Below are positions 12,899 through 23,269 of a stretch of DNA of 64,000 nt, piece by piece. Source of the stretch: Selenomonas dianae (GTDB lineage Bacteria; Bacillota; Negativicutes; Selenomonadales; Selenomonadaceae). Each line of letters opens with the position of its first letter. Positions within the stretch are counted from its first letter, which is position 1. The position numbers were made by a program, and so were the translations under genes. The stretch spans positions 248,001 to 312,000 of the forward strand of contig NZ_CP128650.1 in assembly GCF_030644225.1 (NCBI RefSeq), given 5' to 3'. Below the pieces are notes generated by a model. It saw only the letters and a program-made list of their open reading frames with translations, ran no database searches and was not told the DNA's origin.

Positions 12899-12916
12899 CC
12901 GTATATAAACCGAATA

Positions 12917-12996
12917 AGGGGAGCTGACAGCAGTCGGCTGAGAGGGGATGATGCGTCCCGACCCACAACCTGATTTGGATAATGCCAACGTAGGGA
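12917..12996 (+). promoter_or_regulatory. TPP (THI-box) riboswitch aptamer
   Basis: The strongly conserved THI-box elements are present in order: GGGGAGC, CTGAGAGG, GACCC and CCTGATTTGGATAATGCC...GTAGGGA. It lies directly upstream of thiM-thiD and a terminator hairpin, so it should end transcription when thiamine pyrophosphate is plentiful. The aptamer segment ATGCCAAC (12982-12989) is exactly complementary to GTTGGCAT (13025-13032) in the terminator loop, a candidate switching contact. Confidence 0.95.
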
Positions 12997-13010
12997 TATA
13001 TGTGCAGAGC

Positions 13011-13046
13011 ACGCGGCTATGTCAGTTGGCATGGCCGCGTTTTTTG
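13011..13046 (+). terminator. Riboswitch-controlled terminator upstream of thiM
   Basis: Stem ACGCGGC/GCCGCGT followed by TTTTTT, between the TPP aptamer and thiM. Its loop carries the aptamer-complementary octamer. Confidence 0.85.
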
Positions 13047-19887: not shown

Positions 19888-20140
19888 GCAAGAATCACCT
19901 GTCCTTTTGTCCAATAAAGAAAAAAATAACAACAGCATTATAACACAAGAATGATGAATATGAAATTATAAATTATTGTATACAGAAAATTGATGACAAA
20001 ATGAATTCGTGCATCGGACGGCATTGGCGGTTCCGTTCGGCGTGTCCTCCGCGATTTTGGTGGGTGGAACGGGGGAGCTTGTGCCGTCATTCCATGGGGG
20101 AGCACGGATCAATTCAGTGGGGCGGCGATTCTCAAAAACG

Positions 20141-20184
20141 CAAAATAAAACCGCCGACAGACTTTCTCGTCATCTGTCGGCGGT
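20141..20184 (-). terminator. Terminator of the structured RNA
   Basis: 11-bp GC-rich stem ACCGCCGACAG/CTGTCGGCGGT, 13-nt loop, followed on the minus strand by TTTTATTTTGCGTTTTT. It is placed 22 nt after the 3' strand of the RNA's closing helix. Confidence 0.9.
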
Positions 20185-20699
20185 CATGAGGAAAATACGG
20201 GAAGTGATAGGTAACTCTCCTGCATCTACACGATCTCTGCTTCATTCCGTACCACAGCTAGCATGGGGCGCGGAACTTTCCTTCCAAACGCTGAGAAACT
20301 ACCTCGACATACATCCGGCGCATCCCCCGCAACTCCGCTCGCGGGAAACCATTCCTCCACGCCGCGCCATGTACGCCCCTGTGCCCGTCCTCTGCGGGCT
20401 GCCGCATTCCCTGTCGCACCTCTGATACATCCGTCCCGTCGCGCGCCGGGACTCGACCCTCCTGTGCGAACCTCCGGATCTTCTGCGGCCATTCAATGAC
20501 CCATCGGAATCTCCTCCCAGTCCGTCAAGGAACTCCGGCCGTGCCGGCTTCGCCATCGGCGAAGCTGCACCGCCGTATCCCTCTCCAACAACCGTCGGTC
20601 AACACTGTGGAAACTCCGGAGAACTCGTCCCATATGTTTACGGCTCATATGGGAGCGCCTGTCCTGAATCAAGCGATCTGCGAATCCTCCTTAACTATC
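20145..20699 (-). ncRNA. Candidate large structured non-coding RNA (~555 nt)
   Basis: This fills the only gap over 300 bp without a protein gene. A perfect sigma-70 promoter (20703-20731) starts it and a strong terminator ends it. The extreme 5' and 3' ends pair: 20691-20699 with 20206-20214 (GATAG-x-TAA with TTA-x-CTATC), continued by CGC-a-GATC near 20675-20682 with GATCGTG, and GCTTgATTC (20666-20674) with GAATgAAGC (20239-20247). Clear local hairpins are CCCATATG/CATATGGG (20629-20653) and GCTTCGCC/GGCGAAGC (20547-20565). Short open frames inside have no good ribosome site and Arg/Gly-rich products. It lacks the hallmark sequences of RNase P RNA, tmRNA and SRP RNA. From 19939 to 20140 I see only the leader of the OPT gene. 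Confidence 0.72.
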
Positions 20700-20702
20700 T
20701 TT

Positions 20703-20731
20703 AGTATAGTCAAACTTCAGAAGATTGTCAA
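20703..20731 (-). promoter_or_regulatory. Consensus promoter of the structured RNA
   Basis: On the minus strand TTGACA (20726-20731) and TATACT (20703-20708) with exactly 17 bp between. The start is expected near 20697-20699, where the closing helix of the RNA begins. Confidence 0.9.
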
Positions 20732-20860
20732 TACCGTAAAAAGAAAAATTTGAGGAATTGCCGCTCAAAAATTTGTGATGCGTTTGTCCGTACTTCTCCC
20801 ATGACAGAGCCGGCACGTCAAGCAATGCAGCTGCCTGATGTGCCGGCCTTGTCGTTTCGG

Positions 20861-21982
20861 TTATTCGGTGATTTCACGCACGATGGCGAGCGTCAGCTCC
20901 GCCGCGTCATAGAGATCCTGCTCGTGGATGCTCTCCTCCTTCGTGTGGCAGTCCGTCATGCCGACGCCGAGGACGGTCGTCGGCACACCGTAGGCATTGA
21001 AGTGGTTCGCATCCGAGCCGCCGCCCTCCTCCTCCAGCACGACGGGGAAGCCGAGCTGTTCTGCGGCGCGGCGCAGATAGCGGATGGGGAGCGCGTCGGG
21101 GGGCAGTTCGTAGGGATCGTAGTCCTTTTTGATGTCGATTTCTGCGGTACAGTCCGTCCCGTCGAGGGCTGCGTTTACACTGTCCACCATACGCTGTGTG
21201 AGTGCGTCCAGTTTCGCCTTGTCGCGGCTGCGCGTTTCAAAGTTCAGCGTGCAGAACTCGGCGACGACGTTGGTCGCTGTGCCGCCCTCAATCTTGCCGA
21301 CGTTGCAGGTGGTCTCCTCGTCGATGCGCCCCTGCGGAACGGCAGTGAGCACTCTGCCCGCTGCGGTGATGGCGTTCCTTCCTGCGTCGGGGTCGATGCC
21401 CGCGTGCGCCGCCTTGCCCACGATGCGTACGGCAAGCTGATTCTTGCCGGGGGCTTTGAACGCGGCTGTGCCGGCGTGTCCGTGCGTGTCGAGCGTATAG
21501 CCGAGGTCAGCGTGCAGGAGACCCGTATCCAGACAGCGCGAGCCGTTGACGCCGCCCTCCTCGGCGACGGTAAAGACGATCTGGAGATCGCCGTGCGGGA
21601 TGTTTTGCTCTTTCAGACAGCGCAGCGTTTCGAGGATGGCGACAACGCCCGCCTTGTCGTCCGCGCCGAGAATGGTCGTGCCGTCGGAGCGGATGATGCC
21701 GTCCTTGAGGGTCGGCTTGATGTTCGTGCACGGTTCGACACAGTCCATATGTGCCGTCAGCATGACGGTGGGGACGCCTGCGACCGTGCCTTTGAAGTTC
21801 GCGACGATATTGCCCGTGTTTCCGCCGAGCGCCTTGCCTGCCCCGTCCTCGTGAATCTCCGCCGCACCGAGGTCACGCAGGCGCGTTGTCAGCAGATCGG
21901 CGATTTCGCGCTCATCGAGCGTGGAGCAGCGGATGGAAACCAACTCGAAAAACTCGTCCAGTACGCGCTTTTTGTCAATCAT
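20861..21982 (-). CDS. M20 family metallopeptidase (PepT-like)
   Basis: A 373-residue zinc aminopeptidase of the M20 tripeptidase-like group. Metal and catalytic motifs in order: MLTAHMDCVEPC (His and catalytic Asp), ILGADDKAGVVAILE (bridging Asp), FTVAEEGGVNGS (catalytic Glu and metal Glu), DTHGHAG, KAAHAGIDPDAGRNAI (dimer domain His) and DCHTKEESIHEQDL near the C-terminus (last metal His). It lies 6 bp downstream of the DcuC-type transporter gene on the same strand, so the two form an operon and may link peptide or amino-acid turnover to dicarboxylate exchange. Confidence 0.9.
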   Translation of the reverse strand: MIDKKRVLDEFFELVSIRCSTLDEREIADLLTTRLRDLGAAEIHEDGAGKALGGNTGNIVANFKGTVAGVPTVMLTAHMDCVEPCTNIKPTLKDGIIRSDGTTILGADDKAGVVAILETLRCLKEQNIPHGDLQIVFTVAEEGGVNGSRCLDTGLLHADLGYTLDTHGHAGTAAFKAPGKNQLAVRIVGKAAHAGIDPDAGRNAITAAGRVLTAVPQGRIDEETTCNVGKIEGGTATNVVAEFCTLNFETRSRDKAKLDALTQRMVDSVNAALDGTDCTAEIDIKKDYDPYELPPDALPIRYLRRAAEQLGFPVVLEEEGGGSDANHFNAYGVPTTVLGVGMTDCHTKEESIHEQDLYDAAELTLAIVREITE

Positions 21983-21988
21983 AGCTGC

Positions 21989-23269
21989 CTACTTTCCGAG
22001 GAAGAGGACGATCATAAAGGTGATCGTGGCGAGCAGCATCGGGAGCGCGTTGCGCTTCGAGAGCTCCATCGGGCTGACCTTGGCAAGTCCTGCACACACG
22101 AGCGCCGCACCCGCGACAGGGGACATGGAGCGTCCGATCGAGCCCGCCATCTGCGCGAGCGAGCCGAGGTCGATGATGCTCATGCCGAACGATGCCGCCT
22201 GTGGGGTAATCGCGCCGTTGAACGCGAGCGCCGCTGCATCGCCCGAGCCGGAGATCACGGCGATGATGAATGGCCCGAACGCGCCCGCCATCTTGGCGAC
22301 GGACTCCGAACCCTTCATCGCCTCAATCAGCGCATCCGTGAGCCCCATTGCCGCCATGCCGGCGGTAAAGACGGCGGCGGCGACGATGAGACCGATGACG
22401 CCGCCGTATGCCTCGCCCATGCCGTCAAAGAACTTCTTCGTGATCTCCTGCGGGTTCTGCCGCGTGACGATGAGGGCGAGCACCGTGCCGACGATCATCG
22501 CCGTTGGGACATCCGTGAGCGGCAGGACGGCGATCTGCTTGCTGCCGAGCACGAGCAGGACGAGCGGAACGAGGGGGACGAGCGCGTAGATCGGGTTGAC
22601 TTTGAAATTCCTGCCGCCCTCCTCCTTTTCGAGCTGTGCATGATAGGCGAGACGGCGCGCCTCATCGGGCCCTTCCTTACGTATTGTTGCAATGATGGTC
22701 AGTGCGACAACGGCGACGATGGATGCGACAATCGCGGCGGGCACCTGTGCCATGATGACGGTCATGAGATCGGTCTGCGCGAGATCGGCGACGAAGATGT
22801 TGTGCGCCTGTCCCGGGCTGATGGCACTGCCCCACGTCCCCGCGAGCACTGCCGCACCTGCCATCGCGGGATGAACGCCCGCTGCCATGAGCGTCGGGAT
22901 GAGGATGCTGCCGACCGCCGCCGAGCAGCCCGCCGCGCTCGGGATGGCGATGTTGATCCACCACGTCAGCAGCGTTGCGAGCGGGATGAGGATGAACTTG
23001 CTCCGCGTAATCACACCCGAGATGGACTCGACGAGATGGCGGTCACAGGTCGTGATCTTCATGACGAACGAGAAGCCCATGACCGTACAGATCACGGGCA
23101 CGAGTGAGCCGTGTACCATCGTCTTGCTGAACGTCGCGACTGCATTGCCCGTGACACCGCCGATGAAGCACATGAGAAAGCCGGCTGCGAGCAGCACCAT
23201 GCGTGTCTCGTACTTCTTGATGATGGCGGCAAAGGCTAGAATGACAATGATTCCACCTGCAATTGCCAA
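21989..23269 (-). CDS. DcuC family C4-dicarboxylate transporter
   Basis: A 426-residue polytopic membrane protein with about 12 hydrophobic helices. Features typical of DcuC-like anaerobic C4-dicarboxylate carriers include MGFSFVMKITTCDRHLV, IPSAAGCSAAVGSILIPTLMAAGVHPAMAGAA-type re-entrant regions and GTWGSAISPGQAHN. It would exchange fumarate, succinate or aspartate. The adjacent aspartase gene on the same strand supports this: aspartate would be taken up, deaminated to fumarate and reduced. It precedes the M20 peptidase by 6 bp. Confidence 0.85.
   Translation of the reverse strand: MAIAGGIIVILAFAAIIKKYETRMVLLAAGFLMCFIGGVTGNAVATFSKTMVHGSLVPVICTVMGFSFVMKITTCDRHLVESISGVITRSKFILIPLATLLTWWINIAIPSAAGCSAAVGSILIPTLMAAGVHPAMAGAAVLAGTWGSAISPGQAHNIFVADLAQTDLMTVIMAQVPAAIVASIVAVVALTIIATIRKEGPDEARRLAYHAQLEKEEGGRNFKVNPIYALVPLVPLVLLVLGSKQIAVLPLTDVPTAMIVGTVLALIVTRQNPQEITKKFFDGMGEAYGGVIGLIVAAAVFTAGMAAMGLTDALIEAMKGSESVAKMAGAFGPFIIAVISGSGDAAALAFNGAITPQAASFGMSIIDLGSLAQMAGSIGRSMSPVAGAALVCAGLAKVSPMELSKRNALPMLLATITFMIVLFLGK

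Follow-up and report, generated by a model that had tools for sequence, protein, structure and literature searches.

A structured RNA gene of Selenomonas dianae, without an Rfam entry, that carries a conserved start-stop mini-ORF

The window analysed here is a stretch of 64,000 nucleotides from Selenomonas dianae (C1:248001-312000 on the 2.39-Mb chromosome), and positions refer to this window unless a chromosomal coordinate is given. An RNA gene lies on its minus strand at about 20697-20145; the expression and the function of this gene are predicted. It is preceded on the same strand by the -35 hexamer TTGACA (20726..20731) and the -10 hexamer TATACT (20703..20708), both invariant in all 14 genomes of the genus. 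The spacer between them is 17 nt here and, in the alignment of the 14 genus genomes (A2), 17 nt in 12 genomes and 16 nt in 2. The 5' end of the predicted RNA (20145..20697, minus strand) was placed about 6-7 nt past the -10 hexamer and the 3' end at the U-run of a terminator. With a single rule applied throughout (counting up to where the terminator stem ends), the predicted RNAs of the 14 genomes are 532-583 nt long. The terminator hairpin (20149..20185, minus strand; helix 28 of the consensus model) has a 14-bp stem (20185-20172/20162-20149) with covarying upper pairs and the loop TGACGAGAAAG within 20173-20161, and is followed by UUUUAUUUU. A simple terminator scan reported no terminator here, probably because its loop limit was 8 and this loop has 9 nucleotides.

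Sixty genomes were searched with blastn: a homologue of the RNA was present in 14/14 genomes of the genus and in 0/46 others. Phage and plasmid collections were also searched as possible origins, and the RNA had no match in either. The sequence-only reading of this region had taken 20145-20699 for a large structured RNA read from the minus strand, framed by a TTGACA-17-TATACT promoter and a 3' terminator, and all three elements are borne out by the promoter, the terminator, the homologues and the covariation described below. Genes for an M20 peptidase and a DcuC-family carrier lie upstream of the RNA, at 20861-21982 and 21989-23269 (minus strand); the M20 peptidase was not found within 1.5 kb of the RNA in the other 13 genus genomes.

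The same reading saw no credible protein in this region, and comparison with relatives agrees. The four minus-strand ORFs of 53-88 aa were mapped through the alignment onto the 13 other genus genomes and their stops were listed by frame; frame and openness were kept in 1, 0, 0 and 2 of the 13, respectively. Long stop-free stretches do occur in single genomes within this GC-rich RNA. None of the four ORFs is a conserved long reading frame across these relatives, and a protein-coding gene was rejected.

Rfam gave a single match over the window, a TPP riboswitch (RF00059, 58.4 bits) at 12907-13013 on the plus strand, and nothing at the RNA. At E up to 10, the region 19900-20900 returned chance-level scores and no relevant family, and the covariance models of OLE, ROOL, GOLLD and raiA had no match there; SRP RNA, covered through the Rfam scan of the region, gave no match either. 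RNase P RNA (C1:1326291-1326650), tmRNA (C1:1910098-1910449) and 6S RNA (C1:435562-435737) were each located elsewhere in the genome, above cut-off, which rules out these three identities and agrees with the earlier remark that hallmark sequences of RNase P RNA and tmRNA are absent. The likeness to the OLE, ROOL and GOLLD class that had been proposed holds as far as a large structured RNA is concerned; membership of that class is an analogy, with no Rfam match. No description of the RNA or of its mini-ORF element was found in the literature searched (titles and the starts of abstracts, with few subscription papers). The RNA gene is real, conserved and structured, and has no Rfam entry.

The folding energy of the minus strand was -233.2 kcal/mol, against -205.9 ± 6.7 kcal/mol for shuffled sequences (z -4.1). 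The plus strand was equally extreme (z -4.3), so energy alone cannot assign the strand; the promoter, the terminator and the homologues do. RNAalifold was run on A2, which was also the basis of the covariation counts, and the consensus model contained 175 pairs in 28 helices, with 92.7% of cells paired. Changes on both sides were found in 48 pairs, against 23.1 ± 3.3 in shuffles (0/500 shuffles reached 48), and the double-change cells numbered 97, against 34.5 ± 5.1. When the partner was slid by 1-3 columns, 37-45% of cells were paired and 7-23 pairs were double-changed; the model was derived from the same alignment and is therefore favoured over its slid versions. Covariation supports the RNA fold. 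Most double changes fell in helices 4, 9, 16, 19 and 26 and in the terminator. Helix 4 is an 8-bp hairpin of the 5' domain (20629..20653, minus strand; 5/8 pairs double-changed, 96.4% of cells paired), helix 10 is a hairpin of the same domain with 7 bp in the consensus model (20548..20564, minus strand; 3/7 pairs double-changed), and helix 26 is the covarying stem of a 3'-domain hairpin (20244..20276, minus strand; 6/13 pairs double-changed).

Two long-range helices that had been proposed to close the molecule (20691-20699/20206-20214 and 20666-20682/20232-20247) did not gain support when they were checked for covariation in the homologues, and together they scored no better than shuffles. The first was 90% paired and nearly invariant; the second was disrupted in many genomes (45% and 80% paired in its two parts). 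The apex of the helix-26 hairpin is formed by the self-complementary palindrome GCUAGC (20257-20262), which was invariant (GCTAGC) in 14/14 genus genomes. Four single-sequence folds placed it in a loop in 2 cases and partly paired it in 2. The palindrome recurs in the type b RNAs described below and in the RNAs of groups g14 and g50, and a kissing dimer formed through it is possible.

Some 185-200 nt into the RNA, within a structured domain, lies a ribosome-binding site with an ORF of three codons. The sequence-only reading overlooked this element, together with the invariant terminator loop and the kinship of the RNA to a mostly short family. The Shine-Dalgarno region GGAGGAGATTCCG (20505..20517, minus strand) follows the pattern GGAGGNGANTCCRATGGG that is common to the family, and the mini-ORF reads ATG GGT CAT TGA (Met-Gly-His-stop; 20493..20504, minus strand). 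The core is GGAGG-NGANUCCR-AUG-GGN-(NNN)-stop, and the window RNA carries both core and stop. A search with GGAGGNGANTCCRATGGG, in which no stop was demanded, found 69 places in 52/189 genomes of the family and in 9/30 genera; the reversed pattern, used as a control, had 0 hits in the 189 genomes. The first in-frame stop came at codon 3 in 10 of these contexts, at codon 4 in 58 and at codon 6 in 1, so that codon 3 or codon 4 is a stop at 68/69 core sites. In the other frames, the first stop stood at the codon-4 index in 3/69 (+1) and 2/69 (+2), and never at the codon-3 index. The 69 sites are kin by descent, and the independent events are far fewer (a guess of 6-8 by eye).

The stop is retained while its type and position vary between groups: the 69 sites use TAA in 39 cases, TGA in 17 and TAG in 13. 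Codon 3 occurs in ten forms (CCG 19, CAT 11, CGG 7, AGG 4, CAG 4, TGG 4, CAC 3, TAT 2, TAC 2, TTT 2). The oral genus has MGH or MGY followed by TGA, the S. ruminantium group has MGW, MGR or MGP followed mostly by TAA, and others have MG-TAG. Since all three stop codons are used and residue 3 is variable, initiation with quick termination seems to be conserved, and not the peptide; we infer that selection acts on the start of a ribosome and its quick termination rather than on the peptide. In a wider set of 94 contexts (relaxed spacing, plus named contigs), one stop was at codon 6 (L095) and three cores ran on (L162, L186, L233). Those of L162 (Mesorhizobium) and L186 (Opitutales) resemble ordinary gene starts; L233 has two copies of ATGGGCAG, of which the second again reads Met-Gly-Arg-stop.

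Helices 5 and 11 around the mini-ORF had zero double changes, so covariation leaves both uninformed. A near-invariant 3' segment, CTTCCCGTATTTTCCTC (20188..20204, minus strand), could form a helix with the mini-ORF region (AUGGG/CCCGU); this pairing, helix 11, is invariant, and covariation therefore neither supports nor refutes it. By thermodynamic folding the Shine-Dalgarno sequence is about half accessible, with a mean unpaired probability of 0.11-0.82 across the 14 genomes. Such folding gave no consistent fold switch, and a switch by folding alone was dropped.

The window RNA, found in the oral Selenomonas/Centipeda group (g1), represents the long form within a Selenomonadaceae RNA family that lacks an Rfam entry and is marked by the start-stop mini-ORF. 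Relatives in other genera of Selenomonadaceae are mostly shorter (about 170-440 nt, mostly ~170-200 nt), and the terminator loop UGACGAGAAAG is common to them and to the window RNA. A model of the 3' domain (R1) matched 25/189 family genomes, namely the 14 of the genus and 11 others, and 10 of these 11 carry the core. In those 10 the match rests on the terminator, which has a different stem and the apex GGTGACGAGAAAGCC where the window has GATGACGAGAAAGTC, and GGAGGAGANTCCRATGGG, the same motif as window 20517-20500, lies ~80-100 nt upstream of it. The exact apex 15-mer occurred once each in 6/8 genomes tested; it was absent from G154, where the shared loop was not seen at two loci, and from the window's genome, because the apex there reads GATGACGAGAAAGTC. 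A model of the 5' domain (R2) matched only the 14 genus genomes, and the full g1 core, TGA included, was found only in the 14 among 380 genomes of the class.

A model built from short RNAs of 172-199 nt (R3) matched 67/380 genomes of the class at E up to 0.01; a relative in G016 is longer, at ~440 nt. The R3 matches read in G027, G079, G276 and G014 have no core and seem to reflect the terminator, and within the genus R3 matched the terminator only. Eleven short-form loci had no Rfam match except tRNAs. The S. ruminantium group (g16, 22 genomes) holds two cores in 10 genomes, one in 9 and none in 3. Its type a RNA has the shared loop, and its type b RNA has GGTAATAGCTAGCCG and another terminator with the same core; the core, a promoter and the first few bases (AAGCNAAAGG) are common to the two types, and by eye little else is. 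The window RNA has the features of type a, with its own promoter and a terminator with the loop TGACGAGAAAG. Among 79 relaxed core sites in family genomes, promoter-like sequence was found upstream in 75, and the terminator loop lay within 480 nt of the core in 50. Some RNAs (G034, G026, G207, G205) have tandem cores, two or three in number. At L104, L124, L125 and L232 (g22, g14), two or three cores follow one another along the same strand over a few hundred bases.

Outside the family, 84,980 species were scanned for the core with TRR as the fourth codon. The scan returned 62 stretches, mostly from Selenomonadaceae; 16 stretches with 17 sites were from elsewhere. By our own arithmetic, a pattern of this length should give some 15 hits by chance in the scan, so the number alone proves nothing. 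A stop stands at the fourth codon in 15/17 of these sites, a position at which the pattern permits only stops and TGG. Some of the outside sites gain weight from promoter-like sequence, which lies 14-45 nt upstream at 8/17 (L132 twice, L133, L135, L140, L149, L160, L181). At four clostridial sites (L135, L149, L156, L158) the core and a three-codon ORF are followed by a gene that begins, by eye, like one for a secreted protein, and the core is possibly a 5'-UTR element there. A Lachnospiraceae MAG (JAAVZI010000025.1, L132:6947-7231) has a 52-nt unit in 5.5 tandem copies, GAGGTACRGACCRATG then TAC ACA TAA, which amounts to an array of mini-ORFs; 5/7 such starts in the region stop after three codons. 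L133, L160, L181 and L132 (Lachnospiraceae) show promoter-like sequence and, close to the 5' end, the core GGAGGAGATTCCAATGGG with a three-codon ORF; repeats resembling GAGGTACRGACC come after it. These short units, which had no Rfam match, are a possible separate RNA family. The core-plus-stop pattern had one match in viral_contigs.

Our preferred reading, to which we give a rough probability of 0.48, is that of a ribosome-engaging structured RNA with the start-stop element as its functional centre. Beyond the observed gene structure, conservation, covariation, family membership and stop conservation, we infer that ribosomes engage the RNA, and the later steps follow as a proposal. The element consists of a strong Shine-Dalgarno sequence, AUG, a Gly codon, usually zero or one further codon and a stop. 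A ribosome would start at the mini-ORF and terminate almost at once, and an initiating or terminating ribosome would repeatedly be held on the RNA. Its occupancy would most likely either keep the RNA stable and switch the fold, or bring the RNA to the translation machinery, and the flanking domains, together with the terminator hairpin and its invariant loop, would offer sites for a protein or RNA partner. More broadly, we regard it as possible, at somewhat under even odds, that this is an RNA class spread over Selenomonadaceae and, in related forms, over Lachnospiraceae and other Clostridia, whose mini-ORF captures ribosomes without making a useful peptide and which serves as a ribosome-bound regulator or as a sensor of translation initiation.

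The RNA might instead act in cis on the gene that follows it, as a leader of the attenuator or riboswitch-like kind, with conditional read-through of the terminator and the mini-ORF as leader peptide; we consider this rather unlikely. An OPT transporter gene (Pfam OPT for that of the window) lies downstream on the same strand in 12/14 genus genomes, as a leader would predict, and elsewhere a DUF362 gene follows the short type in several genera, as an IMPDH gene does the second type. In the other two genus genomes (G013, G002), however, no OPT gene was found within 1.5 kb downstream, and the downstream gene differs between genera (DUF362, IMPDH, ABC ATPase and MFS, one example each by Pfam and others by the same first residues). 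The type b RNA of L112, L113, L115 and L126 (g16), with an MGP-stop core, lies upstream of an IMPDH-like gene, which in L112 and L113 has its own promoter-like TTGACA.

Three sites have a convergent gene next to the RNA, which makes a leader role for that gene impossible there: G190 (type a) has a YvyF-like flagellar-region protein that scores below the cut-off of the YvyF model, G191 (type a) a protein resembling it by eye, and G022 (type b) an ADP-ribosylglycohydrolase. The intervals between RNA and co-oriented gene speak on both sides. In 11/17 there was no promoter-like sequence that beat shuffles, and that of L042 measures just 48 nt; yet 6/17 hold a good sigma-70-like promoter (equalled by at most 14/200 shuffles), including 3/3 genus intervals tested, and that of the window is TTGTCA-16-AATAAT (14 of 200 shuffles). 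Short of a systematic search, no antiterminator was noticed. The differing and sometimes convergent next genes argue that the RNA is not the leader of one gene; read-through into some neighbours may occur.

It is unlikely that the mini-ORF is a 5' stabiliser of the STAB-SD kind, where ribosome binding would only block an exonuclease and the rest of the RNA would do the work. The conserved stop beside a peptide that is not conserved would suit such a role, as would the eight outside sites with the core ~14-45 nt past promoter-like sequence and the four cores before secreted-like genes. Against it, the core of the window RNA lies deep within the molecule, in a structured domain. The STAB-SD of Bacillus mRNAs sits close to the 5' terminus and is not used to initiate translation (PMC4113751, as far as consulted), and a start and a stop codon would then be unneeded, which argues against this reading. 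In both, a Shine-Dalgarno sequence is present and the identity of any peptide made from it is immaterial; in the present RNAs, unlike STAB-SD, AUG and stop are conserved inside a structured RNA.

Less likely again is a structural RNA motif (GGA...UCC, AUGGG/CCCAU) with the stop codon as a by-product. AUGGG can indeed pair with a downstream CCCAU in many short RNAs and with CCCGU in the genus, but this pairing shows no double changes, and the in-frame stop is kept while type, position and surroundings change. Stops of the GUAA form could partly persist as a GNRA-like loop, which leaves the TGA and TAG forms unexplained. An excess of GGA in the long form (298 against 215 ± 10 in shuffles), with ACANGGA-like sites raised in the short form (9 against 1.7 ± 1.2) and GGA at the expected level in six type b RNAs (25 against 25.2), suggested a sponge for the translational regulator CsrA. 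This reading is very improbable and is contradicted by carriers of the RNA that show no CsrA match (Mitsuokella, g10: G080, G022 and G081, 99-100% complete; also G034, 91% complete); in addition, CsrA occurs in 26/30 genera and the strict core in only 9.

Against this background, the ribosome-engaging RNA that we favour can be set beside known systems. OLE, ROOL and GOLLD RNAs form homo-oligomers with kissing loops, according to the parts consulted of PMC12286853. Like them, the RNA described here is large and elaborately folded, has its own transcription unit and carries a palindromic loop that could kiss; unlike them, it has no Rfam match, is chromosomal, contains a conserved mini-ORF and has relatives of mostly ~170-200 nt. 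With uORF or attenuator leaders, of which the fthC motif is an example (PMC11109978, as far as consulted), it shares the presence, within a single RNA, of a Shine-Dalgarno sequence, an AUG, a stop in frame and a terminator; Selenomonas, Negativicutes and Mitsuokella are not mentioned in the main text of the fthC paper. Such leaders, as far as these sources go, have one consistent gene downstream, in contrast to the varying and at three sites convergent next gene found here.

The dual-function small RNAs SgrS and RNAIII encode peptides of tens of residues. As proposed here, the present RNA would likewise be a regulatory RNA that is also translated, with the difference that its product has as a rule 2-3 residues, which vary. 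A structured RNA gene normally counts as non-coding, and gene finders miss ORFs that are only a few codons long. If the proposal is true, the start-Gly-(X)-stop family would be a genetically tractable case in which selection acts on initiation and termination themselves and not on their product, and would open a testable route into one of the numerous large bacterial RNAs that have no known role.
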